A stretch of 64,000 nt of DNA from contig JAICSO010000019.1 of NCBI GenBank assembly GCA_025936825.1, positions 1-64,000 on the forward strand, written 5' to 3'. The translations under genes and the position numbers were made by a program. Position 1 is the first letter of the stretch, and every line of letters begins with the position of its first letter. Origin of the DNA: Terriglobales bacterium (GTDB lineage Bacteria; Acidobacteriota; Terriglobia; Terriglobales; Acidobacteriaceae). Under the pieces are notes generated by a model. It saw only the letters and a list, made by a program, of their open reading frames with translations. It was not told the origin of the DNA and did not search any database. Shown here piece after piece: positions 3,439 through 21,776 of this stretch.

Positions 3439-4464
3439 GTGCGCCTTTGGGCTATGCGATCTGGAGACTTTCTACATGGAGATGTCGAAACTCCATTACA
3501 GGACCATTACATAGCGGCGGGTGTGAGCTGCAGGCTTTCTACTAATTGCGAGCACGTTTTGAACGCAGCGCGTTCGAGTTTTTTGCCACTCCCAGGACAG
3601 CCTGATGAAATCGAATTAGATTTACGTTTCTGGATTGACAAAACTGACAAGGCACCCTCACTTCGGCCGAAGCTGTATGTGAGAGGTCTGGATCACTTGG
3701 TATTCGTTGGGATCGATCCCGCCAGTTCCATGCTTGCCAACCTTCACACCAAGCGCGTCATTGGTCGATTCTCGGCTGCTCTAGCCCAGGATTCGACATA
3801 TTGGAGAACAGTGATCTTCCCTGTGCTGATGTCTGTTGTTGCGGGCTCGGTCGGAATCGTGGAATTGCATGCCGCTTGCGTGGCCATCAATAACTGCGGT
3901 CTGTTATTAATTGGCTCCGGCCGATCAGGCAAATCTACGTTGGCAATGGCACTGACGGAGTTGGGATTCGGTTTCGTGTCGGATGACCGATCTTTCTGTT
4001 CCCTAAAGGGTCCTGCATTGTCCGCTTACGGTCTCGCTAGGCCCTTAAAGCTAAGGGAGGCGGCGGCATCGTGGTTCAAAGACTTTCGCAATCGTGAGCC
4101 CTCCGCTGTCCAGAACGGAGAACGTGTCTTTTATTGCGAGCCCAATCGTATTTTTGGACGACAGGCCTCCTCTTACTGCCGGCCCCGCTTGCTTCTGTTT
4201 CTTGAACGGCAGCAACAATCAGGCTTTTTTCTCACGCCGATGGAGTCCGGCCACGCAAAGTCGCGCATTGCAGTGGATTTGTTGCCGGAGATTCCTGCAG
4301 CACTCAACCAGCAACATCGCGTGCTGGACGCATTGCTAGGTCTTCCCTGTTGGCGATTGCAATACAACGGGCGTCCGCAAGTAATTGCCGAACACATTAT
4401 TGGTGCGCTATCGGATTTTTATGAAGTCAACGGCTCTATGCTTCAATGCGAACGTGCGAACTGA
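3439..4464 (+). CDS. HprK-like P-loop protein (kinase A of the pair)
   Basis: A 341-residue protein. The C-terminal half resembles the P-loop domain of HPr kinase/phosphorylase: a Walker A motif GSGRSGKST near residue 160, followed after about 20 residues by FVSDDRSF, the acidic pair that follows the P-loop in HprK-like proteins. The N-terminal 150 residues match nothing I know. HprK-like proteins outside sugar regulation are known as partners of NTP_transf_5 and PqqD-type proteins in peptide-modification loci, where some phosphorylate a Ser; an NTP_transf_5 gene lies at 11682. No HPr or PTS gene is near. The start is uncertain: GTG at 3439 is given, and ATG at 3454 is equally possible. First gene of a tightly packed plus-strand operon. 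Confidence 0.8.
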   Translation: MRLWAMRSGDFLHGDVETPLQDHYIAAGVSCRLSTNCEHVLNAARSSFLPLPGQPDEIELDLRFWIDKTDKAPSLRPKLYVRGLDHLVFVGIDPASSMLANLHTKRVIGRFSAALAQDSTYWRTVIFPVLMSVVAGSVGIVELHAACVAINNCGLLLIGSGRSGKSTLAMALTELGFGFVSDDRSFCSLKGPALSAYGLARPLKLREAAASWFKDFRNREPSAVQNGERVFYCEPNRIFGRQASSYCRPRLLLFLERQQQSGFFLTPMESGHAKSRIAVDLLPEIPAALNQQHRVLDALLGLPCWRLQYNGRPQVIAEHIIGALSDFYEVNGSMLQCERAN

Positions 4465-5484
4465 ATGGCGACTAACCACGGAACAATGCAACCGGTTTAT
4501 GAAAGCTCGAGTGCAGCAAGCCGCGTGGACCTTTTGCGTCGTTTCGCCCCGACAATACACGCAACTAATCTGGTAGCGATGCAAAGAACAATGCGCGTGG
4601 AAACAAATAACGTGGAGATGCTTGCCCTGGTTCTGAAGTTCTTCGAGCGGCACCAACATGGCACTCCAAGCGTGCCCGAATTTGTCTGGCGCATCATCCT
4701 AGAATCTGATAACAGACTTGACCCGAGCGGGGCGCGACTCTCCGCCTTCTCCAACGGCGGACTTCGCTATGTCAATATTGGACAGATGAGCTTCTTGGCT
4801 GTTGATCTGGAGAAGCGGGAAGGAAAAGCGTTTCTGGATCCTGCATTTGTTCACGCAGACGCAAGGTTCAGACATCGCCCGCCAGTGGATATTTTGTTTT
4901 GCATGACAGCCGCGAGCTTGGGACTGGCAGCTCTCTCCGGCGGGTGCGTTGGCAACAATAATCGCGGGGTGCTCATTTTCGGTCCGCCGAACTCGGGAAA
5001 AACCACTGCTTGTTATCTCGCTGCCGAGAGTGGAATGGAGTTCCATGCCGACCAGGTTATCTTCGCCGACGCAAGATCTAATTCGCTGGCGGTGTGGGGA
5101 GATCCGTTTCCCGCCGTGTTTCGTCCGGAAACGTTGGCCTATCTTTCAGAGCTGCGGGACCGCTGTCGTCAGTCCACTTATGGCAATTGCAGTTTCTACT
5201 ACTTCGATAAAGGCCCGATGCAAGCGCCGCGAACTAAACCTGTGGTTCCGATTTGCAGTTTGTTCCTTGATCGCAGCGGGCGGGGAGACGCCCAATTGTC
5301 TGAGATGAAACCCCGCGCGGCACTAAGCCGATTCTATGAGTACATGCTATTCGCAGAGGACGCCAAAGTGGATCCTCAGATCGGTGCAGCAATGCACGCA
5401 CTAACAAGAACACCTGCATACAGCCTTACGTACAATACCGATCCGAAAATTGCTGCCGACGTCATGGTGAAGATGCTGAAATGA
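4465..5484 (+). CDS. HprK-like P-loop protein (kinase B of the pair)
   Basis: A 339-residue paralogue of the preceding protein, starting on the base after its stop codon, so the two are probably translated together. It has Walker A GPPNSGKTT near residue 175 followed by MEFHADQVIFADARS, the equivalent of the HprK acidic region but with AD in place of DD. The N-terminal domain (about 1-150) is again of unknown family. The two proteins may act as a pair with different substrates, or one may be a non-catalytic partner; sequence alone does not decide. Confidence 0.8.
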   Translation: MATNHGTMQPVYESSSAASRVDLLRRFAPTIHATNLVAMQRTMRVETNNVEMLALVLKFFERHQHGTPSVPEFVWRIILESDNRLDPSGARLSAFSNGGLRYVNIGQMSFLAVDLEKREGKAFLDPAFVHADARFRHRPPVDILFCMTAASLGLAALSGGCVGNNNRGVLIFGPPNSGKTTACYLAAESGMEFHADQVIFADARSNSLAVWGDPFPAVFRPETLAYLSELRDRCRQSTYGNCSFYYFDKGPMQAPRTKPVVPICSLFLDRSGRGDAQLSEMKPRAALSRFYEYMLFAEDAKVDPQIGAAMHALTRTPAYSLTYNTDPKIAADVMVKMLK

Positions 5485-6155
5485 GGCCAATATTCTGGAG
5501 GACACTCGCCTGTTCGCTAGGCTATCTACTCCTCGCCATGGCGTGCCTCGTGCAATGGCATGGCGCATCTCACTGGGAGCAACTTGACTGGTTTGCGGGA
5601 AGTTATTTCGCGCTGCGTTTTGTGGGCTCGCTGCATTCGATACTGTCGAGCTGGGGTGTCTTTCATTCCAAGGTTTTACGCGAGGAGTGGTGGGCGTTGA
5701 ATTCCGATCCCACCGGACCTCGGTGGGTCATGTTGTTAATGGCTCTTGATCTCACCGTGTTTCTCGACTATGGCCACTGGCGACTCACACCACGACTGAT
5801 CCAACCCGAGATGCAGATTGCAGGCGCCGGATTATATCTGGCCATTACGCTGCTGCAGATCTGGACCGACAGCTATCTCGCGCGCTTTTTCAACCCGGGG
5901 GAGGCGGCCTCGGCACCAATGAACCATGGGCCATACCGACTTGTACGACATCCGCGATATGCCGCGGCAATCATCGGTAAAGTCGCAATGGCGTTAATTT
6001 TCGGAAGTCTTTTCGGATGGCTGCTCGTTTTTGGGTGGGGAGCGCTTCTTCTCAACAAAATCTCCGTGGAAGAAAGATATCTCCGAAAAGTGTTTGGAAG
6101 CAATTACGAGGCGTACGCCCGAACTACGGCCAAGGTAATCCCGGGAATTTACTGA
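5481..6155 (+). CDS. isoprenylcysteine carboxyl methyltransferase-like membrane protein
   Basis: A 224-residue integral membrane protein with about five hydrophobic segments. The C-terminus carries the ICMT/PEMT signature: GPYRLVRHPRYAA, then ISVEERYL, FGSNYEAYARTT and a final PGIY. In the family these residues bind S-adenosylmethionine and the enzymes methylate lipid-like or membrane-bound acceptors; many bacterial members have unknown substrates. The ATG overlaps the stop of the preceding gene (ATGA), which suggests translational coupling with the HprK-like genes. Confidence 0.85.
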   Translation: MRPIFWRTLACSLGYLLLAMACLVQWHGASHWEQLDWFAGSYFALRFVGSLHSILSSWGVFHSKVLREEWWALNSDPTGPRWVMLLMALDLTVFLDYGHWRLTPRLIQPEMQIAGAGLYLAITLLQIWTDSYLARFFNPGEAASAPMNHGPYRLVRHPRYAAAIIGKVAMALIFGSLFGWLLVFGWGALLLNKISVEERYLRKVFGSNYEAYARTTAKVIPGIY

Positions 6156-6171
6156 AACGGCGTTGGATTGA

Positions 6172-8439
6172 GTGATGCCGCCATCATGGTTACATTTCGG
6201 GCGTACGCGACAATCAGCATCACGGATTCCGCCCAAGTCTTGTGAAACGGAGCAAGCGGCGGCGGGCACATTTGCATTTGAGCCTAGATCTCCTTCGCCG
6301 AGCATTCAGTTACGTGCCGGCGCGGAGTGGTCCCTCCTGTGCCTCCTCCTTTTTGCGTTCGGAGTTGCGGCTTTCATTCCTGCATGCCGGCGCCTCAACT
6401 CAGACTTTCCCAATTACTACCTAGTCGCTCGGCTGTATCGAGCTGGCTACCCGCTGGACCGGGTGTACGAGTGGACCTGGTTCCAGCGCCAAAAAGATTA
6501 CGCCGGCATCGATCAAGGACTAGTCACTTTTATTCCATTAACGCTGCCTTCGGCGCTAGTGGTGGCGCCTGTGGCATCACTGGCCCCGCTCCAAGCCAAG
6601 CGGTGCTGGCTCGTTGCCAATCTGGTGTTCCTGTTTATCACAGCCATGCTCCTGACCCGCATCAGCGACTTGAACTGGAGGCAAGTCGGGTTATTGATGT
6701 TTCTTGCGTTCGTTCCGCTCCGAAGCAACTTTATGCTCGGCCAGATGCATGTTTTGATCTTGCTCTTATTTACGTTTGCCCTTTGGCTGTATTTGCGGCG
6801 ACTCCATTTCACAGCAGGAACTGTCCTTGCTGTCGCGGCAGCGTTAAAGGTCTATCCCGCCCTATTCTTACTCTTTTTTGTCCTCAAACGTAGATGGCGC
6901 GCGGCCCTTGGCCTGAGCGCCGGATTGCTCGGTTCCGCTCTGATGTCGCTTTACCTTTTTGGAAAAACCGCGTGTGAGGTCTACGTTCAGGAAATACTGC
7001 CTGCGGCGTTACGAGCAGAGACAATCGATCCTTACAATGTCGCATTTGGATCCATTAGTACTTTGTTGCGACGCCTGTTCATCGCCGAACCGGAACTCAA
7101 TCCAGCTCCCGTTGCACATCTCCCCTGGCTGTACGCGATCCTGCAGCCGGCTGTGCACACCGTAATATTCATGCTTTTCATTTGGGCAATTGGGCCGCAC
7201 GAGGGAGATCAACAAAAGATCAAGCGCGATTGGGCGATGTACATCTTCCTCCTACTATTCGTCTCATCGCAGCCGGCCGGATATCACTTCGTCGTGCTCA
7301 TGCTCCCAGCGGCGCTTATCCTCAGCGAAATGGTACGCAATCGGCGGCCCGTCCTGGCGTGCATCGGTGCAGCCGTGTATACAGCGACGTGCGTAGCCAC
7401 ATTTTCATGGCATTTCCCATCGCCTTCCGGCTGGCAGACTCTGCTGTTCTTCCCCAGACTTTGGCTCATGGCGATTCTTGGGTCTTTGTTGCTGCTCTGG
7501 ACATTCTCGGCTCGCAGAGGGAGGTGGACTCAGAATCGTGGCATCCGCGCAAAAAGCCTCGTTGGAGCCAGTGTTCTTATTCTAATTATGGCGGGCTTCT
7601 ACTCCACGAAGCGGCATCTTAGGGGCGAGTTTGAGAACTACAAGAGCCGGGTGGCGAGCCGGCCGGGCTCACTATTCGCTTCCAATCCGACGGTCAACGC
7701 TGATGGCATTCTCTCCACAGTAATGACCACGGGTGGTTATACAATTCGGCACACCGAAGGTGAATCCTTTCAGGATTTCCCACGAAGCCATGGCGACTGG
7801 TTCCATCCTTCCCTCGCAGCGCATTCCAGCTTCTCTTGGGTAGAGCAAGCTACTGAACACGGTTCGCGCATCGTTCAGGAGAACACAGTTTCTACTGCGA
7901 CCCGATCCGGTGCGGAGATTGAGGATGCAACGGAGCCAGTTGTCTCGCGCGATGGCGAATGGCTCGCATTTTTTCGCTCCGTAGAGGGACGAAACAGCTT
8001 GTGGGTTCAAAACATCGCGTCGCTGTCTGAAGGCCGCCGCTTGCTCAGTTCACGCCGAATTGCCGGGCCAGAATACGACGCGCGGGGTGCTGACTTTGTT
8101 TCGGATCATCAACTGATCTTCAGTTCCGGCAATGGCAGACTTCTGCTCGCGGATCTTACCAACGATCGAATGCTGCGAGACCTGCATGCAAGTTGCTTCG
8201 CTCGTGATCCTGCCGTCTCGCCCGATGGCACTTGGATGGCTTTCAGCTGCAGACAAAAAGGAAATTGGCAGCTGCATACGATGGGGTTTCAAGATCACGC
8301 GGAGTTGCAGCTCACAGGCGGCGAATGCAATTCCATCACTCCCGCGTGGACGACAGATTCGAAAAGCCTGATTTACGCTACAGATTGCGGTCGAGGGGTA
8401 GGGCTCACAGCCCTCGCGAAAATCAACGTGAATCCGTGA
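6172..8439 (+). CDS. GT87-type polyprenol-dependent glycosyltransferase fused to a TolB-like beta-propeller
   Basis: 755 residues. The first part (about 45-480) is very hydrophobic with many membrane helices and resembles DUF2029/GT87 mannosyltransferases: an acidic segment LNSDFPNYYL after helix 1, then FVPLRSNFMLGQMH and LAVAAALKVYPALFLLFF. After about residue 500 the protein is soluble and contains beta-propeller repeats (VSRDGEWLAFF, VSPDGTWMAFSC, WTTDSKSLIYATDC) as in TolB. The enzyme part would use a polyprenyl-phosphate sugar on the outer face of the membrane, with the propeller in the periplasm. GTG at 6172 or ATG at 6175, 17-20 bases after the previous stop. The fusion is unusual; a single uninterrupted frame supports it. 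Confidence 0.8.
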   Translation: MMPPSWLHFGRTRQSASRIPPKSCETEQAAAGTFAFEPRSPSPSIQLRAGAEWSLLCLLLFAFGVAAFIPACRRLNSDFPNYYLVARLYRAGYPLDRVYEWTWFQRQKDYAGIDQGLVTFIPLTLPSALVVAPVASLAPLQAKRCWLVANLVFLFITAMLLTRISDLNWRQVGLLMFLAFVPLRSNFMLGQMHVLILLLFTFALWLYLRRLHFTAGTVLAVAAALKVYPALFLLFFVLKRRWRAALGLSAGLLGSALMSLYLFGKTACEVYVQEILPAALRAETIDPYNVAFGSISTLLRRLFIAEPELNPAPVAHLPWLYAILQPAVHTVIFMLFIWAIGPHEGDQQKIKRDWAMYIFLLLFVSSQPAGYHFVVLMLPAALILSEMVRNRRPVLACIGAAVYTATCVATFSWHFPSPSGWQTLLFFPRLWLMAILGSLLLLWTFSARRGRWTQNRGIRAKSLVGASVLILIMAGFYSTKRHLRGEFENYKSRVASRPGSLFASNPTVNADGILSTVMTTGGYTIRHTEGESFQDFPRSHGDWFHPSLAAHSSFSWVEQATEHGSRIVQENTVSTATRSGAEIEDATEPVVSRDGEWLAFFRSVEGRNSLWVQNIASLSEGRRLLSSRRIAGPEYDARGADFVSDHQLIFSSGNGRLLLADLTNDRMLRDLHASCFARDPAVSPDGTWMAFSCRQKGNWQLHTMGFQDHAELQLTGGECNSITPAWTTDSKSLIYATDCGRGVGLTALAKINVNP

Positions 8440-8454
8440 CAAACACCACCGCTA

Positions 8455-9966
8455 CTACGTGCAGCTTGGCGCTGTCTCTGGCTGTAACCTTTTTGCATCG
8501 ACACTAGGTTTAGGCAACTTCACAATGTTCTTTAGCTTTCGATTGATCCAAAGCTCTACCGGAAAGCTGTAAAAGTCATAGTTCAGGCGCATGCGAGCAG
8601 GATACGCGGTGAGGTGCTGAATAGTTTTTGCGATGCGACCGTGACCTTTGGTCGCAATCGGAGCTCGATCGAACGCGATCCGCAGGTAATCTCGCATAGT
8701 CTGGACCCGCTGGTGATCGGTACCTTTGAGCCAAGGCAGCACGGTGTATCGTGGGAAGTAATCCGCCCAACCCTCCAGGGACTTGGGTACCTCGATCCCC
8801 AGTTGGGCAGTCTGCTGGAAAATCGGTGATCCGGGATAAGGAGTGAAGATGTTCGTCCAGAATTCTGCACCGGGGAACTTGCGGCAGATATCCATCATGA
8901 AAGCGACCGTTTCGCGCCGCTCTTTCGGGCCTTCCCCGGGAAACCCAAAGATGATATTGAACGACGGGATAACTCCCGCGCGAATGCACCTCTCGGTAGA
9001 TTGATAGATGTCTCCCAGAACTTGAAAATCCTTATTCATCAGCTTCATCACCGTCGGAGAAGCCGTTTCAATCCCCTGGCAAATCTGATGTAACCCGGAG
9101 CGGCGCAGCAGGGTCAATTCCTGGATGGTTAGCCGCGCTGTGAGGTTAGTCGTAGCTTGAACACTCCACTTAAAGTTCGCCCCACCCCGGATCAAGCCTT
9201 CTGCGATCTTGAGCGAGCGGTCGAGATCGACCAGGAAATTATCATCGGCCATCCACAGCAGTTCCAGGCGATAGCGGCGAGTCAGATCGATAGTCTCCTC
9301 CACTACTTGCTCGACGGGCAGGGCGTTCCACTTGCGTCCGTAAACTCCGGCGTTCGTGCAGTAAGCGCAATTGAAGGGACAGGCTAGGCTAGAGACGTAC
9401 ATCGCCCAGCGCCGGCCGCAAATTTGTTCGTACGCGTCAAAGTCGGCAAGATGGTAGGCCTTTGCCGGCATCTGTTCGAGCCTCTTGAGCGGTCGTTCGG
9501 CAGTAAAGTGCAGCTTGCCATCGCGCTTGAATCCGATGCCCATTACGTCGTCGAGTGGGGCATCGTCGCGTAGCCTATCGGCCACAGCAACCATGCTCTC
9601 CTCCCCTTGGGCCCGGACAATGATGTCCACGTAAGGGGCCTCAAGTGTCTGGGTTGGGAGCAAAGACGGATGCCAGCCCCCTAAAATGATGGGGAATTCC
9701 GGACTCCAGTTCTTGATCGCTTTCGCGACCTCAACGGTCTCACGGATCATCGGCCCAGTCACTAGCGAGATGCCTAGACAGAGCGCATCTTTTACTTCTT
9801 CCATGATGCGCTTCTTGTAGTCTGGTGCGATGGACGCATCGATGATGCAGATTTCATATCCCGCATCCAGTAGAGGAGTGGAGATTGCCAGGATTCCGAG
9901 CGGGGCAGTCGCTTCAATGCTGGAAAAAGAGGCAACGAAGAAGACGATTTTCTTTGAGGATTTCAC
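8455..9966 (-). CDS. B12-binding domain radical SAM protein
   Basis: About 500 residues. N-terminal cobalamin-binding-like Rossmann domain (to about 150: PLGILAISTPLLDAGYE, LCLGISLVTGP, PIILGGWHPSL), without a DxHxxG motif, as in many B12 radical SAM enzymes. The radical SAM core follows with SLACPFNCAYC, the CxxxCxxC that binds the [4Fe-4S] cluster, then a GIETASP strand and FGFPGEG. The frame is open to 10107, but GTG at 9966 is preferred: GAGAAGG lies 6 bases upstream and the translation then aligns with its paralogue at 15446. Both paralogues end with a YSFPxELW motif. Last gene of the minus-strand group; it has its own copy of the regulatory repeat at 10016. Confidence 0.9.
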   Translation of the reverse strand: MKSSKKIVFFVASFSSIEATAPLGILAISTPLLDAGYEICIIDASIAPDYKKRIMEEVKDALCLGISLVTGPMIRETVEVAKAIKNWSPEFPIILGGWHPSLLPTQTLEAPYVDIIVRAQGEESMVAVADRLRDDAPLDDVMGIGFKRDGKLHFTAERPLKRLEQMPAKAYHLADFDAYEQICGRRWAMYVSSLACPFNCAYCTNAGVYGRKWNALPVEQVVEETIDLTRRYRLELLWMADDNFLVDLDRSLKIAEGLIRGGANFKWSVQATTNLTARLTIQELTLLRRSGLHQICQGIETASPTVMKLMNKDFQVLGDIYQSTERCIRAGVIPSFNIIFGFPGEGPKERRETVAFMMDICRKFPGAEFWTNIFTPYPGSPIFQQTAQLGIEVPKSLEGWADYFPRYTVLPWLKGTDHQRVQTMRDYLRIAFDRAPIATKGHGRIAKTIQHLTAYPARMRLNYDFYSFPVELWINRKLKNIVKLPKPSVDAKRLQPETAPSCT

Positions 9967-10137: not shown

Positions 10138-11670
10138 TCATTCCGGCTCCATTAAGTAAGAGAATGCCTGCATAGGTGCCGCCCTGGTCCATCGTCGCAG
10201 AAGAAAGCAGCCCAACCCGGCGCCGTAGACCACGGCTCCGCAGGTGAATTGAGCCATAAGTGCACCAACGGTGTGAATCCCAAAGACCCGTCCGAGCAGC
10301 CAGAGCACGCAGGTGAATGGGATGCAGAGAAGCAACGGGAATCCATAACACCGTCTCAGAAAAGTCCGGAGCGGTAGGCGCAGCAAGCGACAGACGTGTT
10401 CCGGCAGAAAAAGAATACTCGTGCATGTCAGCGGAATCGCCGTGCCCAGGGCAACGCCGAGCAGGCCCAAAGGACGGACCAAAATCAGGCTGAGCAGAAG
10501 GTTGGTCGCCCCTTCCAGCAGGAGCACTGAGGCCAGCGTTCGATGCCGGCCCATGCCGAGAAGAATCTTCGTAGATGTGGATTGGGCAAGATACAAAGAA
10601 CGCGGGACGAGCAATAGAACCAGCACCGAGTAGCTGGCGATATAGCGGCTGCCCACCCAAACCTCAATAATGGATCGGCCCATGATCACCAGAGTCATGC
10701 AGATGGGAAAGACGATCAACGCGCAAGCCCGGTTCCCAGCGATGAAAGTGCGCTGCAGGCGGTTGAGATCACCGACTGCATGGAAGTGACTGCTCATTGG
10801 AACAAAGACTTGCGACATACCCCGAACGGCGTACCCGGAATATTCGACGAGCTTTCCTGCAATCGAGAATCCTGTGATTGCGCTGGCAGAGAGGAAGGCG
10901 CCGATCACCACGGCGTCAGATTGGAAGCGTAGCTTCTCGGCCATCGCAATCAGAAGTGCGAAAACGCCGTACCCCGCCATTTTATAAAGCGCAGTTGTTT
11001 CCAAGTGCGCCACTGAGAGGCGCACCGGCATCGCCCATATTGTTATGATTGCCAGGAGCACGTAACCAAGCACGCTGCTTATGACGGCAATGGCGCCTAT
11101 GGCCAACAGTCCTTTGCCAGTAATAAGCGCAATACAGATCAAGGCAGCGCGGACCACATGCATGCCAGCCTGGGTGAGTTGCAGGACCGAAAACTTCTGA
11201 AGACCCTCAAGGATGGCAGTGAAGACGGTCAGCGGAAATGAAAGCCCAACGCCGATCCCCGAAAGTACGAAGAGCATCCGAGCGGAACCCAGAAGAGCGG
11301 ACGGGATTTTGAAAAAGACGTTCAGATAGAGGGACCCTACTGCCGTCAGAAGTACAACCAGCACTGCGACCACGCTATAAAACGCCAGACTTGTGCTCAA
11401 ATATCGCGAGAGATGATCGGCATTGCCGGTGGCGGTGAACGTTGCCGTGTACTTTACGATGGACGACCGAATTCCAAAATCGAGGAGCGCGAAATACGAC
11501 GTCACGGTGAAGACTAAAATCCAAAGGCTGAAGGCTTCATCCCCGAGGCGGTGAAGAATCAGGGGGGAAAGCACAATACCGACCGCCCCATGCACGGCAA
11601 GCGCGACCCACGTCGCGGCGACGTTTTTGAGCGCTCTTACTTTGACGCCCATGAATCTTTGTTCCCCCAT
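10138..11670 (-). CDS. polysaccharide/lipid flippase (Wzx/MATE-like membrane protein)
   Basis: About 510 residues with roughly 12-14 hydrophobic segments along the whole length, and a start resembling O-antigen flippases (NVAATWVALAVHGAVG, LSPLILHRLG, then a DFGIRSSIVKY element typical of the Polysacc_synt family). It probably moves a lipid-linked intermediate across the inner membrane. The frame is open to 11736, overlapping the upstream gene by 55 bases; ATG at 11670 (12 bases after the upstream stop) is chosen, and ATG at 11652 with GGGGGA upstream is also possible. Fourth gene of the minus-strand unit, after the NTP_transf_5 gene. Confidence 0.85.
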   Translation of the reverse strand: MGEQRFMGVKVRALKNVAATWVALAVHGAVGIVLSPLILHRLGDEAFSLWILVFTVTSYFALLDFGIRSSIVKYTATFTATGNADHLSRYLSTSLAFYSVVAVLVVLLTAVGSLYLNVFFKIPSALLGSARMLFVLSGIGVGLSFPLTVFTAILEGLQKFSVLQLTQAGMHVVRAALICIALITGKGLLAIGAIAVISSVLGYVLLAIITIWAMPVRLSVAHLETTALYKMAGYGVFALLIAMAEKLRFQSDAVVIGAFLSASAITGFSIAGKLVEYSGYAVRGMSQVFVPMSSHFHAVGDLNRLQRTFIAGNRACALIVFPICMTLVIMGRSIIEVWVGSRYIASYSVLVLLLVPRSLYLAQSTSTKILLGMGRHRTLASVLLLEGATNLLLSLILVRPLGLLGVALGTAIPLTCTSILFLPEHVCRLLRLPLRTFLRRCYGFPLLLCIPFTCVLWLLGRVFGIHTVGALMAQFTCGAVVYGAGLGCFLLRRWTRAAPMQAFSYLMEPE

Positions 11671-13729: not shown

Positions 13730-15189
13730 AGGCTCTCAGCTTTGGGCTTGCGCAATTCAATAACTTGCTGCATCCATTTCAGCTCCCATGGTGCTCCGTA
13801 GATGCCGAGGCGATAACGCCAACTGCTGAGCGCTTTCAGCGCGAGCCGGCCCCAATTCGGCAAGCGAATGTCCTGAACGGTCGGCCATCGCGACGAGACG
13901 ACCAGTTCAAAGTTGTCGATTCTCCGCTTTGTCGTGGGTTTTAACCAGGGTGTCTGGGGATCCTTTTGGGTTGCGAAGCGCTGCCAGTGGTCCGTAGCCC
14001 ACTCGTCGGGCGTGGTCGGAAATTGGACTTTGTCCTCTATGCCACCGTACATCCGTGCACGCTGGGGCACGGGGGTGTAGTGCTCCACGATGATCTCCGC
14101 CTCTGGATTCAGACGTTTCAGCTGGCGAATAAATCCGATGCAGCTCCGGGTATCGCCCTCCGGGTCTTTTGGATTTCCAAAGATAATTGAAAACTCCGGA
14201 GTGATGCCGAATCGCCGAATGCGTGAGGCCAATGCAAGGGTATCCTCAGCATGAAGGTCTTTGTTCATCTCCTTAAGAACCTGGTTATCGCCGGACTCGG
14301 CGCCAAAAAAAATCATGGTGCAACCCGCGCGCCTCAGAGCCTCATAGGTCGCATCCGAGTACTTCATCATGATGTCGGTTCGCCCTTCGCACCACCAGCG
14401 GAGATTCAACGAGGCAAGGCGGTCAGCCAACTCGCGGGTGTGGTCCTCTCGCAGGAAGAAATTGTTGTCATAAAACTGAACTGCATCTACTCCGTACGTT
14501 TTGACCAGATGCCGCAGGATGTCCTCGGTGCGCCCTGGCGATTCCATTCTCTCCCGGCTTCCGGAAAACGTGACCACACCGCAAAAGTTGCAGCGATACG
14601 GGCAGCCGAGGCTAGCTTGATGAACCGCTGTGCGAGCACCCAGAAACGTAGGCAGAAGATATCTTTGGGCGGGAAGCCGATGATATGGATACCAGGGAAA
14701 ATCATCGAGGCTGCGCATCGGGCGCTCGGGATTATGGCGCACGATGCCCGTTTTGTCCCTGTACGAGAGTCCTGAAATATTCTTCAGGTCGCGTCGGTCA
14801 CGCAGGGCCTCAAGCAATTCGAGAAACGTTTGTTCCCCCTGCCCGCGAACGGCGAAATCAACGTAAGCCGCGTTCAGCGCCGCGGCCGTGTAGTTGGAAG
14901 CAAAATACCCCCCCCAGACGATCGGGACCGAAGGAAATCGCGCGCGAATCTCGCGGCAACTCGCCACGGCCCCGACTGTCTGCGGCCCCGGCATCACCGT
15001 GACGGCAAGGAGTTCAACGGGACGGTCCTTCAGGATGCCAATCAGGGTCTGGGTGGGGTTGGGATCAAGATTCCCATCGACAATCTCGTACTCTTCCTGG
15101 CCTTCCACCACTGCAGCCATGGCAAGGATCGACAGAGGAAAACGCCGGTTCCGCGCTCGAGTGGCTTTCGGGTTGTAAAAGAGAATCAT
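13726..15189 (-). CDS. B12-binding domain radical SAM protein
   Basis: 487 residues from ATG at 15189. The frame is open to 15408, but the translation becomes family-like only at MILFYNPKATRARNRRFPLS, so the ATG at 15189 is used. B12-binding-like domain to about residue 150 (VIVWGGYFASN at its end), then the radical SAM core with SLGCPYRCNFC and FFGAESGD; the C-terminus has YGAPWEL, similar to the YSFPWELW end of two other enzymes in the locus. First gene of the minus-strand unit, with regulatory site 3 at 85 bp upstream. It is the most divergent of the five B12 radical SAM proteins here. Confidence 0.9.
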   Translation of the reverse strand: MILFYNPKATRARNRRFPLSILAMAAVVEGQEEYEIVDGNLDPNPTQTLIGILKDRPVELLAVTVMPGPQTVGAVASCREIRARFPSVPIVWGGYFASNYTAAALNAAYVDFAVRGQGEQTFLELLEALRDRRDLKNISGLSYRDKTGIVRHNPERPMRSLDDFPWYPYHRLPAQRYLLPTFLGARTAVHQASLGCPYRCNFCGVVTFSGSRERMESPGRTEDILRHLVKTYGVDAVQFYDNNFFLREDHTRELADRLASLNLRWWCEGRTDIMMKYSDATYEALRRAGCTMIFFGAESGDNQVLKEMNKDLHAEDTLALASRIRRFGITPEFSIIFGNPKDPEGDTRSCIGFIRQLKRLNPEAEIIVEHYTPVPQRARMYGGIEDKVQFPTTPDEWATDHWQRFATQKDPQTPWLKPTTKRRIDNFELVVSSRWPTVQDIRLPNWGRLALKALSSWRYRLGIYGAPWELKWMQQVIELRKPKAESL

Positions 15190-15300: not shown

Positions 15301-15361
15301 ACAAAAGCAGTGTGGCGAGCACGGTACACCCGGCGAAACGGCAGCGAGAATTGTCAAGAAG

Positions 15362-15388
15362 TGACACAGATTTAACAATCCACTGACA
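15362..15388 (-). promoter_or_regulatory. three-repeat 11-bp-period regulatory site 4 (before the plus-strand radical SAM unit)
   Basis: Minus-strand reading TGTCA-N6-TGTTA-N6-TGTCA; in gene direction TGACA, TAACA, TGACA at 11-bp intervals. 58 bp before the TTG at 15446. A further half-site in the opposite direction (TGTCA at 15352-15356) makes an inverted repeat with the first TGACA, with 5 bases between them. Confidence 0.7.
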
Positions 15389-15445
15389 AGTCGTGCGTCT
15401 CTATCCACCTAGAGTGCAGTAGCCGAACGCTCATAGGGACTTGAC

Positions 15446-16951
15446 TTGTCCGGAACCAAAAAAGTCGTACTGTTTTATCCCCCGTATGACGGTCCACCGC
15501 TCGGTGCGCCCCTCTCCCTACTCTGCCTCGCATCTCCACTCTTGCAGGCGGGATTTGAAGTCAAGATCATCGACAACCTGATCGCGCCGAACTATGACAA
15601 GGCAATCCTTCAGGAAACAGCGGATGCGCTTTGTTTAGGCATCTCGGTGCTCACGGGGCCACACATCGGCGCCGCAGTTCGGGTCTCGAGACTGATAAAG
15701 AAGCTGCGGCCAGAGTTGCCCATCATTTTCGGCGGCTGGCACCCGAGTCTCGCAACTCATCAAACGCTTCGCGAACCGTTCGTTAATGCGATTGTCAGAG
15801 GACAAGGCGAGCTTACCCTGCTGGAACTCGTGCAAAGAATCGCAGAACGAAGCGATTGGCACGGCGTGCAAGGCCTCTCGTTCAAAGATGGGGACGGGAA
15901 ACTCATTGATGAACCCGAGAGGCCTGTCACGAATGTGAACCAGCTGCCGCCTCCCAGTTATCATCTAGCAGATCCGGCTATTTACGCCGCGGTGTCCGGG
16001 GTAAGGCAGTTAGCATACACCAGCAGCATCGGATGCCCCTACCAGTGCAACTACTGCACCGACATGGTCTTCTATAAACGGCGTTTCAATGCTTACACAG
16101 TTGATCGCGTGGTGAGCGAACTCAGTGACCTGGTTCCCCGTTACAACATCGAACACGTCCCCTTTTTCGATTCTAATTTCCTGGTGGACCGTCGGCGTGC
16201 CGTCGCAATCGCCAAAGGGATCATCGCCACTGGAGTGAAGTTTCAGTGGGACTTTCAGACTTCCACCGACTTCCTTTCTCTCATGAGCGAGGAGGAGGTC
16301 CACCTTTTGGCGGAAAGCGGTGTACACCACATCGGATTCGGGACCGAATCAGCCTCGCAAGAGGTACTTACCCTGATGAACAAGCGTTTTCAGCATGTGG
16401 AACAGATGGTCGAGACGGCGCGAAAGACTCACCTGGCCGGGATCCACGTGGTATTCAACATAATTCTTGGTTATCCCGGCGAGACCGACTCCGATCGCCA
16501 GAAGACTTTCCGTGTAATGAGCGATATCGCCAAAGACTACTCGAATGTCAGCTTCTCTCCCAATATCTTCACTCCCTATCCTGGAATCCCGATCTGGCCG
16601 CAGCTCAAGAGTATGGGAGTGAGGGAGCCGCAATCTCTAGAAGAATGGGAGACCTTGGCCCTGGGTACTAACGTCCTGCCCTGGTTGCGCGGAGAAGATT
16701 TACATCGCCTTCGGCGCAGTCTCGAATACTTCCTGCTCAACAATCAGATTCGAAAGTTCACCAGGAAAATACCGTGGGCGCAACGCGGCGTCAGGCGACT
16801 ATTGGGAGCACCCGTACGCTGGCGCATTGGCAAAAGCCACTACTCATTCCCCTGGGAACTCTGGGTGTCGCGCGCAGTGGAGAGAGTGGTTACGAAACGC
16901 TCGCTGTTAACCGGGCAGGCTTTACCCGAACGTACGGAGCAAGCGTGTTGA
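15446..16951 (+). CDS. B12-binding domain radical SAM protein
   Basis: 501 residues, a clear paralogue of the gene at 8455-9966 over its whole length (shared PLGA/PLGI start, LCLGIS, TGP, GGWHPSL, NIFTPYPG and YSFPxELW). It has the B12-binding-like N-terminal domain without DxHxxG, then SIGCPYQCNYC as cluster motif and GFGTESAS. The TTG start is supported by AGGGA about 8 bases upstream and by alignment with the paralogue. The two copies may catalyse successive or alternative steps. First gene of the five-gene plus-strand unit; site 4 lies 58 bp upstream. Confidence 0.9.
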   Translation: MSGTKKVVLFYPPYDGPPLGAPLSLLCLASPLLQAGFEVKIIDNLIAPNYDKAILQETADALCLGISVLTGPHIGAAVRVSRLIKKLRPELPIIFGGWHPSLATHQTLREPFVNAIVRGQGELTLLELVQRIAERSDWHGVQGLSFKDGDGKLIDEPERPVTNVNQLPPPSYHLADPAIYAAVSGVRQLAYTSSIGCPYQCNYCTDMVFYKRRFNAYTVDRVVSELSDLVPRYNIEHVPFFDSNFLVDRRRAVAIAKGIIATGVKFQWDFQTSTDFLSLMSEEEVHLLAESGVHHIGFGTESASQEVLTLMNKRFQHVEQMVETARKTHLAGIHVVFNIILGYPGETDSDRQKTFRVMSDIAKDYSNVSFSPNIFTPYPGIPIWPQLKSMGVREPQSLEEWETLALGTNVLPWLRGEDLHRLRRSLEYFLLNNQIRKFTRKIPWAQRGVRRLLGAPVRWRIGKSHYSFPWELWVSRAVERVVTKRSLLTGQALPERTEQAC

Positions 16952-16977
16952 ATGGCTGAATGGAAGGGGCAATCAAG

Positions 16978-18513
16978 GTGTCTGACGTTCTACTGACCCA
17001 TTCTTACCATCTGTATTACGACCGCAAGCAAACGCGGAAAATGCAGCCCTATCCTCCGCTGGGTACGTTATATGCGGCGGCATTGTTGCGCCGGGCTGGA
17101 ATCTCAGTAGCTCTGTTCGACACAATGCTGAACGATCCCCAAGAAGGGTTTCAGCATGCCCTCGAGCGCCATCGGCCGCGCATCGTCGTCGTCTACGAGG
17201 ATAATTTCAACTTCTTATCCAAGATGTGCCTAACGCGAATGCGAGAGGTCGCATTCGCCATCGGCAACATGTCGCGTAAAGCGGGAGCAACGATTTTGGT
17301 CAACGGTTCCGATGCTTCCGATCATGCAGAAGAATACCTGCAACACGGCTTTTGCTACGTTTTGCTGGGAGAAGCTGAGTGGACCTTACTTGAAACCGTG
17401 AAACATCTGCTGGCCGGAGAAGACCTAGCCTTGGAACGCGTCGCTGGAATCGTCTCTCTGCGAGAAGGCACCCGGGAACCGGCGAGAACGCCGTCCAGGG
17501 CCCTCATGCGCGATCTCGACTGCTTGCCCTTCCCTTCCCGTGACCTGATCGATATCGAACAGTACCGAACAGCATGGAAGTCCACCCATGGCTATTTCTC
17601 GCTCAATGTCGTAGCCAGCCGGGGTTGTCCGTACCGTTGCAACTGGTGCGCTAAGCCGATATATGGCGACTCCTTTTCGATGCGCTCGGCGCGATCCGTA
17701 GCGCAGGAAATGCGCGAATTGAAATTTGAGTACGGCGCCGATCATTTATGGTTCGCAGATGATATTTTCGGCTTGCGCCCCAAGTGGGTGCGAGAACTGG
17801 CCGCTGAGGTGGAGAAACTGGATGCAGCGATCCCGTTCAAAATGCAAACCCGCGTAGATCTGATGTCGCCGGATACTGTGTCGGCTTTGCGGCGGGCTGG
17901 TTGCGCGGAAGTTTGGATGGGAGCCGAGTCCGGATCGCAGAAGATCCTGGACGCCATGGATAAAGGCACCCGCGTGGATCAGATCGCAAAAGCACGCAAA
18001 AACCTTCGTGATCAGGGAATTCGCGCCTGCTACTTCCTGCAATTCGGATACTCGGGAGAAACCTGGCACGACATTCAGAGCACCATCAAACTGGTTTGCG
18101 ATACGCGGCCGGACGATATCGGCGTATCCGTTTCCTACCCGCTGCCCGGGACAAAATTCTTCGAGCGCGTGCAAGCGCAACTGGGCGAGAAGACTAACTG
18201 GTCTGACAGTGAAGACTTGTCGATGATGTTCCAGGGCGCCTACACCAACGAGTTCTACCGCGCTCTGCACGATGCGCTGCACGCTCAGGTTGATCGCTGG
18301 AACACATCCAGCCGACACACCGATAATCGCCGGCAGGAGAGTTCCCACGGCAACCCTGAGCGACTCTGGAAACGCGTCATGGAACTGGAGCAGACGTGCC
18401 GGAATCCACGACCCACACGGTTGCGAGTCGTGCCGAAGGAAGAACTGGTTCAAATCTCGCCGTGCGCACACGCCACCAGCCTTGAAGAACTTCTTGCCGA
18501 TCTGGCCGGTTGA
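16978..18513 (+). CDS. B12-binding domain radical SAM protein (tandem copy 1)
   Basis: About 511 residues. Opens with a DVLLTHSYHLYYDRKQT segment and MQPYPPLGTLYAAALLRRAG, the start of a B12-binding-like domain; the cluster motif is ASRGCPYRCNWCAKP near residue 220, followed by MGAESGSQKILDAM and LQFGYSGE. GTG at 16978 is preferred over ATG at 16960 because GGAAGGGG lies 8 bases before it and the translation then starts like the next gene. A tail of about 90 residues after the core is not shared with that neighbour. 26 bases after the previous stop. Confidence 0.9.
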   Translation: MSDVLLTHSYHLYYDRKQTRKMQPYPPLGTLYAAALLRRAGISVALFDTMLNDPQEGFQHALERHRPRIVVVYEDNFNFLSKMCLTRMREVAFAIGNMSRKAGATILVNGSDASDHAEEYLQHGFCYVLLGEAEWTLLETVKHLLAGEDLALERVAGIVSLREGTREPARTPSRALMRDLDCLPFPSRDLIDIEQYRTAWKSTHGYFSLNVVASRGCPYRCNWCAKPIYGDSFSMRSARSVAQEMRELKFEYGADHLWFADDIFGLRPKWVRELAAEVEKLDAAIPFKMQTRVDLMSPDTVSALRRAGCAEVWMGAESGSQKILDAMDKGTRVDQIAKARKNLRDQGIRACYFLQFGYSGETWHDIQSTIKLVCDTRPDDIGVSVSYPLPGTKFFERVQAQLGEKTNWSDSEDLSMMFQGAYTNEFYRALHDALHAQVDRWNTSSRHTDNRRQESSHGNPERLWKRVMELEQTCRNPRPTRLRVVPKEELVQISPCAHATSLEELLADLAG

Positions 18514-18517
18514 TTCC

Positions 18518-19912
18518 ATGGACATACTTCTAACTCACGGTTATTTCCTTTACGAGGACCCCAAAGAATTGCAGATCATGAAGCCCTATCCCCCCTTAGG
18601 CGTTCTCTACATCTGCTCGCATTTGCGTAAAAAGGGGATCGTCGCCGAGGTCTTCGACTCCACGTTTTCATCGCGCCAGCAGCTATGGGAGCTACTGCGC
18701 AAAGGGCCGCCATCTGTTCTCGGTGTATATGCCAATTTAATGACTCGATCGAACGTGGTTGAAATTCTTGCTGTGGCCAAAGAAGCAGGCTGGAAAACCC
18801 TGGTCGGAGGGCCCGAGCCAGGCGCCTACGTCTCCGAATACCTGGCGGCCGGCGCCGATGTGGTGGTGATCGGTGAAGGCGAACTTACATTGGAAGAACT
18901 AGTTCCGGCGCTGCGCTCGCATGGCCTAGATAATCTGCACGAAATCGACGGCATCGCATTCCGGTCCAGGGAGGGTTCGATCATACGCACCAAGCCTCGC
19001 GAGCAGATCAAGGACATCGACGCTCAACCCTGGCCGGCTCGGGAAGCAATTGACGTCGCACAATACGTTGACGTGTGGCGCAAGCACCATGGCATGGGCT
19101 CGGTTTCCCTGATCACGGCTCGTGGCTGCCCGTATCACTGCCGCTGGTGCAGCCATGAGGTGTTTGGAAAAACGCACCGGCGCCGTAAGCCGGCATCCGT
19201 AGCCGAGGAGCTCGAGTGGCTTATTAGCCGTTATCAGCCGCAAATGGCGTGGATGGCCGATGACGTGTTTACCATCCATCACGGTTGGTTATTTGAATAT
19301 GCGGCAGAACTCAAGCATCGCGGCTTGAAACTGCCCTTTGAATGCATTTCTCGTGCCGATCGTTTGAGCCCCCGGGTTGTCGAGACTCTGGCAGACATGG
19401 GATGTTTCCGCGTCTGGATCGGCTCCGAAAGCGGCTCGCAACGCATCCTCGACGCGATGGAGCGCGGTGTGACCGTGGAACAAGTGCGGAACGGAGTCGC
19501 GCTCTGCCGGGCAGCAGGGATTCAGACCGGAATGTTCCTGATGTGGGGTTACGAGGGTGAAGATCTTTCTGACATCGAAGCCACTGTTGAGCACGTCAAG
19601 GAAACCGATCCCGATATTTTCTTTACCACGGTGGCGTATCCCATCAAAGGGACCCCATATTTCTCTGAGGTGGCCGAGCGCGTTGAACCGTTGAAGCAAT
19701 GGAAGGACACTTCGGACCGCGAATTTCGTATTAGAAACCGGCACTCGCGCCAGTTTTACCGTTTCGCAGACAAGCTGCTGCGCAGCGAAGTGGAACTCAA
19801 ACGCCTTCATCATAAGCCGGACGTGGATGCCGCCGCCGTAGTAGCCTTGCGCAGTGTGGTTGCCGAAGCTCGTGCCGGCCTGGAAGCAACGTACTCCGAG
19901 GTGGAGGCGTGA
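18518..19912 (+). CDS. B12-binding domain radical SAM protein (tandem copy 2)
   Basis: 464 residues from ATG at 18518, four bases after the preceding stop; upstream codons in the same frame belong to the overlap with that gene. It is a tandem paralogue of the previous protein: ILLTHGYFLYEDPKELQ and MKPYPPLGVLYICSHLRKKG at the start, ARGCPYHCRWCSHEVFGK as the CxxxCxxC motif, IGSESGSQRILDAM and MWGYEGE in the barrel. The two probably arose by local duplication and may act on related positions of one substrate. Confidence 0.92.
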   Translation: MDILLTHGYFLYEDPKELQIMKPYPPLGVLYICSHLRKKGIVAEVFDSTFSSRQQLWELLRKGPPSVLGVYANLMTRSNVVEILAVAKEAGWKTLVGGPEPGAYVSEYLAAGADVVVIGEGELTLEELVPALRSHGLDNLHEIDGIAFRSREGSIIRTKPREQIKDIDAQPWPAREAIDVAQYVDVWRKHHGMGSVSLITARGCPYHCRWCSHEVFGKTHRRRKPASVAEELEWLISRYQPQMAWMADDVFTIHHGWLFEYAAELKHRGLKLPFECISRADRLSPRVVETLADMGCFRVWIGSESGSQRILDAMERGVTVEQVRNGVALCRAAGIQTGMFLMWGYEGEDLSDIEATVEHVKETDPDIFFTTVAYPIKGTPYFSEVAERVEPLKQWKDTSDREFRIRNRHSRQFYRFADKLLRSEVELKRLHHKPDVDAAAVVALRSVVAEARAGLEATYSEVEA

Positions 19913-20739
19913 AGATGTCGGTCTTACAGCCGCAAGTCGTGCCGGCACCGTTCGATGCGGTGGCCAACCAGTACGACAATAGGTTTACTTCGTCGGCGGT
20001 CGGCCGAGCCCAGCGTGTGGCCGTGTGGAAAGAACTACCAAACATATTTCACCCGGGAGATCGCGTGCTTGAGATCGGCTGTGGTACCGGCGAAGACGCG
20101 TGTTTTCTGGCACAACGCGGAGTTCGAGTGACCGCCTGCGACAGTTCCTCGCAAATGATTGCTGTAGCGAGGCACAAAATTGCCGGGTGTGGCCTGCAGA
20201 AACTCGTAACGCTCGCTCAGGTTCGGGCAGAGCACATTTCCAATCTGGGGACCGGCGGAGCTTTCGATGGAGCATTCTCTAATTTTGGCGTACTGAACTG
20301 CGTGCCGGATTTAGGCCAATTAGCAACGGATCTGGCAACCCTGCTCAAGCCCACGGCTCATGCTGTGCTGTGCTGGATGGGGCCGACCTGTATTTGGGAG
20401 ATCGCTTGGTATCTCGTTCACGGGGATCGGAAAAAGGCATTTCGGAGGCTGCAGCGGGATACCGTTATCGCGAGAATCGCAGCGGGTGCTTCCGTCCACA
20501 TTAGTTACCCGTCGGTCAGATCACTGGCAAAAACCTTTGCGCCCTACTTTCGAGTGAAGGCTGTTATCGGCATCGGAGTCGCCGTCCCACCCAGCTATGC
20601 GGAAGCTTGGGCGCAACGTCATCCCAAATGGATGCGGTTTTGCGAAGGCTTCGATGCACTGCTGGGTAGATCTCCGACCGTCCGCCTGCTCGGGGATCAC
20701 GTGTTGGTGCACTTTCAGCGCAATTTGGTGCAGGGATGA
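19909..20739 (+). CDS. class I SAM-dependent methyltransferase
   Basis: About 276 residues. FDAVANQYDNRF at the N-terminus and motif I VLEIGCGTGEDACFLAQRG (about residues 45-63), acidic CDSSSQMI, then FDGAFSNFGVLNCV place it in the Methyltransf_11/25 group. GTG at 19909 overlaps the previous stop; ATG at 19915 with GGAGG upstream is an equally good start. Its stop overlaps the next gene's ATG. It is distinct in sequence from the methyltransferase at 12980, so the locus has two soluble methyltransferases in addition to the membrane ICMT-like protein. Confidence 0.9.
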   Translation: MKMSVLQPQVVPAPFDAVANQYDNRFTSSAVGRAQRVAVWKELPNIFHPGDRVLEIGCGTGEDACFLAQRGVRVTACDSSSQMIAVARHKIAGCGLQKLVTLAQVRAEHISNLGTGGAFDGAFSNFGVLNCVPDLGQLATDLATLLKPTAHAVLCWMGPTCIWEIAWYLVHGDRKKAFRRLQRDTVIARIAAGASVHISYPSVRSLAKTFAPYFRVKAVIGIGVAVPPSYAEAWAQRHPKWMRFCEGFDALLGRSPTVRLLGDHVLVHFQRNLVQG

Positions 20740-21776
20740 GTACTCTTGTATCCATCGCGAGTTCGCCCGATCACGCTAGCTTGGCCGCGCAGCGGGTCCG
20801 AGCTTTGCCAGTGCTCGTTATCTTTCCTCATAATCAATGCAATTGCCGCTGTGTGATGTGCGATATCTGGCGCGTTCGGGAAGCGCAGCAGATTACCCCG
20901 GCAGACCTCGAACTGCAAATGGCTTCCATCCGGGAACTTGGGGTCAAGTGGGTGGTTTTCTCCGGCGGTGAGCCGCAGTTGAACGAGAAGTGGAGTTGCC
21001 TGGCTCGCATGCTGCGTGCAGCTGGAAGCCGTATTACGCTGCTCACGGCCGGATTGCTGCTTCATTCCCAAGCCCACGCCGTAGTGAATGCCGTGGACGA
21101 TGTCATCGTATCGCTTGATGGTCCACCTGCCATTCACAACAGCATCAGGCGGGTGAAAGATGCTTTCGAACAGTTAGAGGTAGGAGTGCGAGCCTTACGT
21201 CAGCTCCGGCCCGAGATTCCTGTCCGTGCGCGATGTACGGTGCAGCGGGCAAATCACCGTGCCTTGCGAGCTGTCTTACAGACCGCCAAAGAGATGGGAT
21301 TGACATCAATTTCTTTCCTGGCCGCTGATGTGACTTCAACTGCATTCAATCGAACTGAGCCCTGGCCGCCGAATCGCGTCAATCGGGTGACGCTCGATTC
21401 AGAAGAAGTCGCTGCCCTCGAGACCGAGATCGAACTGCTAGTCCACGAGCATCAAGCGGACCTTGATTCAGGATTCGTGGCCGAATCAGCGGGGAAGTTC
21501 AGGCTCATTGCCCGTCATTTTCGAGCCCAACTGCAGCAGGCGGAGCATCTGGCGCCGCGCTGCAATGCTCCTTGGGTCTCGGCCGTCATTGAAGCATCGG
21601 GCGATGTGCGCCCATGCTTCTTTCAACCGGTGCTGGGAAACATTCACCGGCGCTCGTTGCCGGAGATTGTCAACGGCCCCGAGGCACTGTGGTTTCGGGC
21701 GAACCTGGACGTCCGAAGTAATCCTGTGTGCCAGCGATGCGTTTGCTCGTTGCACATCACACGGCAGGAGCCGTGA
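20736..21776 (+). CDS. radical SAM protein with SPASM-like C-terminus
   Basis: 346 residues without a B12 domain. The cluster motif is CNCRCVMC (CxxxCxxC) near residue 35, followed by VVFSGGEPQL, the SAM-binding GGEP motif. The C-terminal quarter has Cys residues spaced as in SPASM domains (APRCNAPWVS, DVRPCFFQP, NPVCQRCVCSL), which usually hold extra iron-sulfur clusters and are typical of enzymes acting on peptides or on other large substrates. Starts with an ATGA overlap and ends the plus-strand unit. Among the radical SAM genes here it is the one that most suggests a peptide-like substrate, but no precursor is visible. Confidence 0.9.
   Translation: MSTLVSIASSPDHASLAAQRVRALPVLVIFPHNQCNCRCVMCDIWRVREAQQITPADLELQMASIRELGVKWVVFSGGEPQLNEKWSCLARMLRAAGSRITLLTAGLLLHSQAHAVVNAVDDVIVSLDGPPAIHNSIRRVKDAFEQLEVGVRALRQLRPEIPVRARCTVQRANHRALRAVLQTAKEMGLTSISFLAADVTSTAFNRTEPWPPNRVNRVTLDSEEVAALETEIELLVHEHQADLDSGFVAESAGKFRLIARHFRAQLQQAEHLAPRCNAPWVSAVIEASGDVRPCFFQPVLGNIHRRSLPEIVNGPEALWFRANLDVRSNPVCQRCVCSLHITRQEP

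Follow-up and report, generated by a model that had tools for sequence, protein, structure and literature searches.

A co-conserved locus of B12-binding radical SAM enzymes, paired HprK-like proteins, and NTP_transf_5 in a Terriglobales bacterium, with a possible role in making an exported surface compound

Positions 3439–21776 of the 64,000-nucleotide stretch analyzed here (the window; contig JAICSO010000019.1 of assembly GCA_025936825.1, from a Terriglobales bacterium of the family Acidobacteriaceae) contain a locus that combines two HprK-like proteins (HprK1 and HprK2), an NTP_transf_5 nucleotidyltransferase (NTP5), five B12-binding radical S-adenosylmethionine (SAM) enzymes (B12a–B12e), a SPASM radical SAM enzyme, methyltransferases, a Wzx-like flippase, and a GT87 glycosyltransferase. 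The parts of the locus are almost certainly co-conserved rather than assembled by chance. They form two linked modules, one of B12 radical SAM enzymes and the other of HprK and NTP5, each of which is present without the other in some genomes. The single locus proposed in an earlier note, made from the letters of the window, is thus upheld in its co-conservation and has to be divided into two modules. We favor, with a probability of about 0.4, the reading that the locus directs the synthesis of an exported surface compound, in which a methylated small moiety would be phosphorylated, capped, and glycosylated, and would leave the cell with a polysaccharide. Computed directly are the co-conservation, the fusions of HprK1 with HprK2 and of the methyltransferase MT1 with an amidohydrolase, the intact motifs, and the cluster-specific GTP cyclohydrolase II of some relatives.

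Co-conservation of the two modules

Homologs were counted at thresholds of 1e-60 for B12a, 1e-80 for B12b, 1e-15 for NTP5, and 1e-5 for HprK2. Genes of the other genomes were called by a simple open reading frame (ORF) script and labeled by BLAST, and their small genes, starts, and labels are possibly wrong; the locus sets and a sample of 20 genomes used for GTP cyclohydrolase II were picked from the matches and not at random. B12a occurs in 29 of the 150 genomes of the order, including that of the window (28 at 62–100% identity, and G137 at only 39%). B12b is present in 40 of 200 genomes of the class and in 21 of 247 genomes of the phylum; twelve of the 13 B12b genomes outside the class have identities of 36–46%, and one, G477, of 66%. 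All 29 B12a genomes of the order carry an NTP5 homolog, versus 27 of the 121 others, and 24 of the 29 carry a mostly distant HprK2 homolog, versus 18 of the 121, both counts being uncorrected for relatedness. A gene of the NTP_transf_5 family (PF14907) is located within 30 kb of B12b in at least 24 of the 40 class genomes, and random placement would give about 0.75. The co-location is seen both in the family of the window (at least 12 of 15 genomes) and in other families (at least 12 of 25).

The B12 module recurs, with changes, in the order B12a-(c)-d-e-MT2-(Xmt)-B12b-MT1-amidohydrolase-SPASM in families f1, f4 (one genome, G197), f5, and f6, and is incomplete further out. The window belongs to a subtype whose locus is devoid of Xmt and the amidohydrolase. 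A second cluster type, found in six loci, is composed of NTP5-MT2-GTP cyclohydrolase II-B12d-Xmt-amidohydrolase-UDP-glycosyltransferase-GT87PD, with HprK adjoining; L162 is without GT87PD, and the cyclohydrolase gene of G024 has one stop. B12d is the one B12 enzyme seen in this second type. Orthologs are therefore not scattered in related genomes, the outcome against which the earlier note had staked its claim, and form a cluster conserved across families.

It is also possible, although we consider it unlikely, that two unrelated islands, one of exopolysaccharide genes with HprK and NTP5 and the other a metabolite cluster of B12 radical SAM enzymes, share a common integration hot spot. Each module indeed occurs without the other, and the genus-mate G103 lacks homologs of B12a, HprK, and NTP5 at the thresholds used. 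The divergence of the two modules is also uneven. The B12a–e proteins of the window are 91, 90 (over 311 residues; 87% in L033), 85, 77, and 85% identical to those of the relative G070, versus 49, 47, 36, and 32% for HprK1, NTP5, HprK2, and GT87PD; the SPASM enzyme, the membrane methyltransferase ICMT, MT2, and MT1 have identities of 70, 65, 60, and 55%. The arrangement of the genes, however, argues against separate islands. NTP5 of the window shares a single run of same-strand genes with B12a, Wzx, MT1, and B12b, and a start at position 12983 would make it overlap MT1 by four bases. In loci of the second type, NTP5 has an overlap with MT2 and is in the same run as B12d, and the frequent co-location with B12b holds across different arrangements. 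The radical enzymes are more strongly conserved than the enzymes of phosphorylation and transfer, a pattern that would fit a single core moiety attached to different carriers.

The kinase pair and the nucleotidyltransferase

The locus contains fourteen real ORFs in three same-strand units, the neighbors being mostly joined by 4-base overlaps or short gaps, in agreement with the tight packing described in the earlier note. Unit 1 spans positions 3439–8439 on the plus strand, unit 2 runs from about 15.2 to 8.46 kb on the minus strand, and unit 3 spans 15446–21776 on the plus strand. Pfam supports the gene identities proposed before for twelve of the fourteen proteins, which have clear matches to PEMT/ICMT, GT87 (with PD40), B12-binding and Radical_SAM (five proteins), Polysacc_synt, NTP_transf_5, class I methyltransferases (two proteins), and Radical_SAM with SPASM. 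Refined starts were picked by eye from candidate starts, overlaps, and ortholog alignments; the likelier ones are 9966 for B12a, 11652 for Wzx (moved from 11736), 12983 for NTP5 (from 13112), 15189 for B12b (from 15408), and 18518 for B12e (from 18272).

HprK1 (3439..4464, plus strand) is a protein of 341 residues with an HprK/PEPCK fold, the Walker A motif GSGRSGKS, and an SDD motif, and is the predicted catalytic kinase. HprK2 (4465..5484, plus strand) is a second HprK-like unit with the Walker A motif GPPNSGKT, and has HADQ where HprK1 has SDD. HprK1 scores 27.4 bits against Hpr_kinase_C (PF07475), below the curated cutoff of 33.3, and HprK2 has no match in Pfam. The two are nevertheless a homologous pair, since a search with HprK2 recovers HprK1 at 5.5e-14. 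The AlphaFold2 model of HprK1 (pLDDT 87.9) resembles PEPCK (Foldseek 3.5e-9) and HprK (1.2e-6). A profile of 16 sequences matches the structure 3tqf at 2.5e-6, although numerous other P-loop ATPases are matched as well. The presence of two HprK-like proteins thus stands by homology, Walker A motifs, and the fold of HprK1, and is borne out more weakly by the family models.

Six of the fourteen HprK ORFs in one chosen set of loci (L175–L178, L184, and L185) are single proteins of 673–707 residues, the first half of which aligns to HprK1 and the second half to HprK2. In L181 and L182, the second half is reduced to its N-terminal domain, and the other six ORFs of the set are single HprKs, one of them incomplete at the end of its stretch. 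No such fusion was seen in the first-type loci of other sets or in second-type loci. In genus g4, HprK is followed by a small protein of its own, about 133 residues long, which resembles the second N-terminal domain of two fused proteins (27–28% identity). The fusion in relatives indicates that HprK1 and HprK2 are likely to be one functional unit.

The HprK1 units have a DD pair after the P-loop (SDD, or ADD in L185), and at the same site nine HprK2 units have HADQ, HSDE, HSDQ, HSDM, or QSDQ. We speculate from these residues that HprK2 is perhaps a degenerate partner of the catalytic HprK1. Against degeneracy, the Walker A motif of HprK2 is intact, and the single HprK of L081 also has SDE, so the altered motif alone cannot settle the matter. 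HprK diverges faster than the B12 enzymes. The HprK2 search of the order showed only one close relative, the search of contigs (close relatives only) gave one locus, in the metagenome-assembled genome of an Acidobacteriaceae bacterium, and the B12 search revealed the locus more widely.

HprK-related kinases A and B (TIGR04352 and TIGR04355) accompany NTP_transf_5 and PqqD in exosortase-linked loci. The window locus is related to these loci through its kinase family and through the polysaccharide context of its relatives. The scores against the two models, however, are only 36.8 and 34.9 bits, the cutoff being 200, and no PqqD or exosortase match is found among the fourteen genes. The ScmC-like kinase of the SynChlorMet cassette is absent from the NCBIfam matches listed for HprK1 and HprK2 (the best 25 matches per protein were considered), and HprK of the relative L076 stays at 27.5 bits, below the ScmC cutoff of 125, which sets it outside the SynChlorMet definition.

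NTP5 (11682..12983, minus strand) contains a QxDxD motif together with other invariant residues and matches PF14907 with 122.8 bits, well over the cutoff of 31.2. The catalytic residues Q, D, D, E, and H are invariant in 14 NTP_transf_5 sequences. In its fold, NTP5 weakly resembles nucleotidyltransferases of the toxin and small-molecule kinds, the best match being at 5.8e-4. According to a review (PMC8498205), an HPr-kinase homolog and a nucleotidyltransferase are known from lasso-peptide clusters, where they phosphorylate a serine and then put hexoses on the phosphate.

The paeninodin and pseudomycoidin clusters resemble the window locus in having an HPr-kinase-related protein K beside a nucleotidyltransferase N, with a suggested logic of phosphorylation followed by sugar transfer to the phosphate. 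The window locus differs in that no precursor, B protein, or C protein was found, in its two kinase units, and in the B12 radical SAM module and polysaccharide genes that stand in their place. Protein N may be a member of NTP_transf_5.

This precedent favors a cluster for a ribosomally synthesized and post-translationally modified peptide, in which the B12 enzymes would C-methylate the peptide, HprK would phosphorylate serine or threonine, NTP5 would glycosylate the phosphate, and ICMT would methylate the C-terminus. The sub-threshold similarity of the B12 enzymes to the rSAM_ocin_1 and ApyD models also fits, yet we find such a peptide product quite unlikely. Among 1806 ORFs of 20–160 residues in 67 loci, excluding those located mostly inside larger genes, no conserved short family, as judged from the members listed, occurs in at least three loci, apart from those of cytochrome c and cupredoxin and of ORFs that run antisense to these genes, and none of the short ORFs of the window tested before 24.7 kb has a relative. 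The lack of a conserved short ORF argues against a peptide. McjB, McjC, exosortase, and PqqD likewise have no Pfam match among the fourteen genes, as had been claimed, and the GTP cyclohydrolase II and amidohydrolase of relatives fit a peptide poorly. Elsewhere, the genome of the window encodes an exosortase (G000:C32:84898-85653) and a McjB-like Transglut_core3 protein (G000:C2:49865-50188), both on other contigs.

Radical SAM enzymes and the GTP clue from relatives

The five B12-binding radical SAM enzymes are encoded by B12a (8455..9966) and B12b (13726..15189) on the minus strand, and by B12c (15446..16951), B12d (16960..18513), and B12e (18518..19912) on the plus strand. The gene for the SPASM enzyme (20736..21776, plus strand) closes the locus. 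All six enzymes keep the CxxxCxxC motif. B12a groups with B12c (41% identity) and B12d with B12e (36%), and B12b stands apart (28% to B12c). B12a has 91% identity in the two nearest relatives. The B12 enzymes reach at best 113–151 bits against NCBIfam cutoffs of 481–578, a similarity at the level of the superfamily; BchE, HpnJ, HpnR, rSAM_ocin_1, AprD4, and other B12 radical SAM models do not reach their cutoffs among the matches listed. The best match of the SPASM enzyme is a tungsten-cofactor maturase (71.5 of 380 bits), and none of the 25 listed reaches its cutoff. To our knowledge, few pathways use even two B12 radical SAM enzymes.

The locus encodes two class I SAM-dependent methyltransferases, MT1 (12980..13729, minus strand) and MT2 (19909..20739, plus strand), the latter present in both cluster types, and a membrane methyltransferase of the ICMT/PEMT type (5481..6155, plus strand; 224 residues; 65 and 69% identity in the two nearest relatives). 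In ten loci of a 25-locus set, MT1 is fused to the amidohydrolase, as a single ORF of 604–734 residues matches both; one fusion of 644 residues, scanned with Pfam, has Methyltransf_11 at residues 54–147 and Amidohydro_1 at 426–580. A role in anti-phage defense was considered and rejected, because a PADLOC scan of seven of the fourteen proteins (HprK1, HprK2, ICMT, GT87PD, NTP5, MT1, and SPASM) gave superfamily matches only, MT1 being matched to mad2 and the SPASM enzyme to viperin models.

Membrane-lipid tailoring is another conceivable function, in which the B12 enzymes would carry out methylation or coupling of the acyl or isoprenoid chains in lipids of the hopanoid or membrane-spanning type, and ICMT and GT87 would act on the head groups. 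PEMT/ICMT and GT87 are membrane enzymes, and the B12 proteins have sub-threshold similarity to HpnJ, HpnR, and TIGR04072. We regard this function as very unlikely, however, since the patchy spread of B12a in the order (29 of 150) is unlike that of a core lipid trait, the fourteen genes include none for a lipid backbone, and relatives carry GTP cyclohydrolase II and deaminase-like genes.

These last genes provide a clue to the building block. In addition to the second cluster type, the first-type genomes G016 and G029 have a cluster-like GTP cyclohydrolase II adjoining GT87PD. In the sample of 20 genomes, twelve have exactly two matches to GTP cyclohydrolase II, and the eight with more are exactly those with a copy in the locus. 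Seven cluster copies are 59–92% identical to each other and 52–60% identical to six non-cluster copies. The locus copy is thus extra and set apart from the others, and its interpretation as a mere riboflavin gene was rejected. The models closest to the amidohydrolase are those of guanine deaminase (47.5 of 375.4 bits), and its matches in the PDB are weak. The dedicated cyclohydrolase and the guanine-deaminase-like amidohydrolase of relatives point to a GTP-derived heterocycle rather than a peptide. The building block of the window locus may therefore also be derived from GTP, which is the simplest common reading of this hint from relatives. As a separate observation, a RibBA gene at positions 1960–3213 of L159 has a GTP cyclohydrolase II half that appears degenerate by eye, and its genome has three other matches.

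Riboflavin and toxoflavin are metabolites derived by way of GTP cyclohydrolase II. The clusters of relatives resemble their pathways in having a dedicated GTP cyclohydrolase II paralog, methyltransferases, and a deaminase-like enzyme, and differ from them by additional B12 radical SAM enzymes, a kinase, a nucleotidyltransferase, and glycan export; the window has no dedicated cyclohydrolase. No characterized pathway was matched in the models searched, and no account of this gene set was found in the open-access literature, as judged mostly from titles and the beginnings of abstracts, in line with the earlier claim that its content corresponds to no described pathway.

A proposed pathway, export genes, and neighboring genes

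In the proposed pathway, the substrates, the reactions, and their order are all inferred. First, a small moiety, probably a GTP-derived heterocycle, would be built and repeatedly methylated by the methyltransferases, the five B12 radical SAM enzymes, and the SPASM enzyme; in relatives, the dedicated GTP cyclohydrolase II and the guanine-deaminase-like amidohydrolase would take part. A hydroxyl on the moiety or on its carrier would then be phosphorylated by HprK1, working with HprK2, and NTP5 would attach a sugar or a nucleotidyl group to the new phosphate, in a manner comparable to the pseudomycoidin pair. Finally, GT87 and neighboring glycosyltransferases would supply sugars, Wzx would flip the product, and an exopolysaccharide system would provide the exit.

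The Wzx-like flippase of the Polysacc_synt family (10138..11652, minus strand) has no counterpart at the corresponding place in G070 or L033. GT87PD (6172..8439, plus strand) is a fusion of a GT87 glycosyltransferase with a C-terminal PD40 propeller and recurs next to both cluster types. GT87 enzymes use a polyprenyl-phosphate sugar donor. Wzz, Wzx, Wzy-like ligases, and glycosyltransferases are common beside the copies of relatives, loci of family f5 included, and Wza is present in nine of 25 loci of one chosen set and in three of six second-type loci. The flippase of the window and these genes of relatives resemble those of Wzx/Wzy exopolysaccharide loci, none of which is known to us to contain five B12 radical SAM enzymes or a GTP cyclohydrolase II. 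The lipid-linked glycan suggested in the earlier note is accordingly favored by the surroundings of relatives and only in part by the window.

Several observations weigh against the proposed pathway. In the window, only Wzx and GT87 favor glycan export, and the locus contains neither Wza nor Wzz. Sixteen of the 40 class genomes have no NTP5 within 30 kb of B12b among the matches listed: in G039 and G052 it is on the same contig but far away, G263 has none, and thirteen have none listed on the contig. The sixteen include all five genomes with a B12b of only 40–42% identity. HprK and NTP5 also occur in genomes without B12a, the B12 module occurs without HprK or NTP5 nearby in G039, G052, and G113, and the association tests ignore phylogeny. 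Since no NCBIfam cutoff is reached among the matches listed, each activity is assigned by superfamily only. Moreover, the window locus lacks GTP cyclohydrolase II as well as Xmt, and its genome has no close amidohydrolase (best match 2e-4), so that the link to GTP comes from relatives. The genome has the usual two matches to GTP cyclohydrolase II and no extra one, and the cyclohydrolase compared groups with non-cluster copies (60–67% identity, versus 52–56% to cluster copies).

Several families retain as many as five B12 radical SAM enzymes in this pathway, none of whose steps has a name in NCBIfam. If true, the proposed pathway would bring together three normally separate fields, namely the chemistry of radical methylation, the phosphorylation of secondary products by kinases similar to HPr kinase, and the biology of surface polysaccharides. 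The question of the substrate can be tested directly by way of the cluster-specific GTP cyclohydrolase II and the fused kinase pair.

Cupredoxins, small cytochromes c, and probable β-barrel proteins recur beside the loci of relatives. A bolder version of the proposed pathway, which we consider improbable, is that the product is a heterocycle derived from GTP, C-methylated several times, similar to a flavin, pteridine, or azapteridine, and linked by a phosphodiester to exopolysaccharide. It would function as a redox group outside the cell with the help of the outer-membrane barrel proteins, the cupredoxin, and cytochrome c.

The cytochrome c of about 100 residues (19 of 67 loci), the cupredoxin (18 of 67), a second cytochrome c, and a probable β-barrel protein of about 360 residues recur together. 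The set adjoins HprK and NTP_transf_5, also without B12 genes, and is found in L074, L077, L084, L156, L162–L164, L167, L168, and others. In family f5, a cytochrome c protein is located next to B12a (L137 17793–19430 and L184 8448–9850); that of L137 has a RoxA-like match below the cutoff (21.2 of 26.7 bits).

The gene order shared by G070 and the window does not end at position 21776 but continues as far as about 25.2 kb in the window. A protein with a CarboxypepD_reg domain (21834..22565, minus strand) is probably a neighbor only. Its 69% identical homolog adjoins the module in G070, other families have weak homologs (27–32%), and that of one relative has cupredoxin-like motifs, as judged by eye. 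A two-domain cytochrome c (22615..23403, minus strand), kept in order in G070, is a possible neighbor. A sixth B12-binding radical SAM gene is located outside the locus at positions 32939–34426. Two cobalamin riboswitches, at 40539–40706 (94.4 bits) and 43622–43836 (79.9 bits), precede genes of B12 salvage and uptake, at a distance of about 20 kb to the genes of the five B12-dependent enzymes; the linked genes encode CobU, a CobB/CobQ-like protein, a periplasmic binding protein, a TonB receptor plug, FecCD, an ABC ATPase, DBI_PRT, and CobS.

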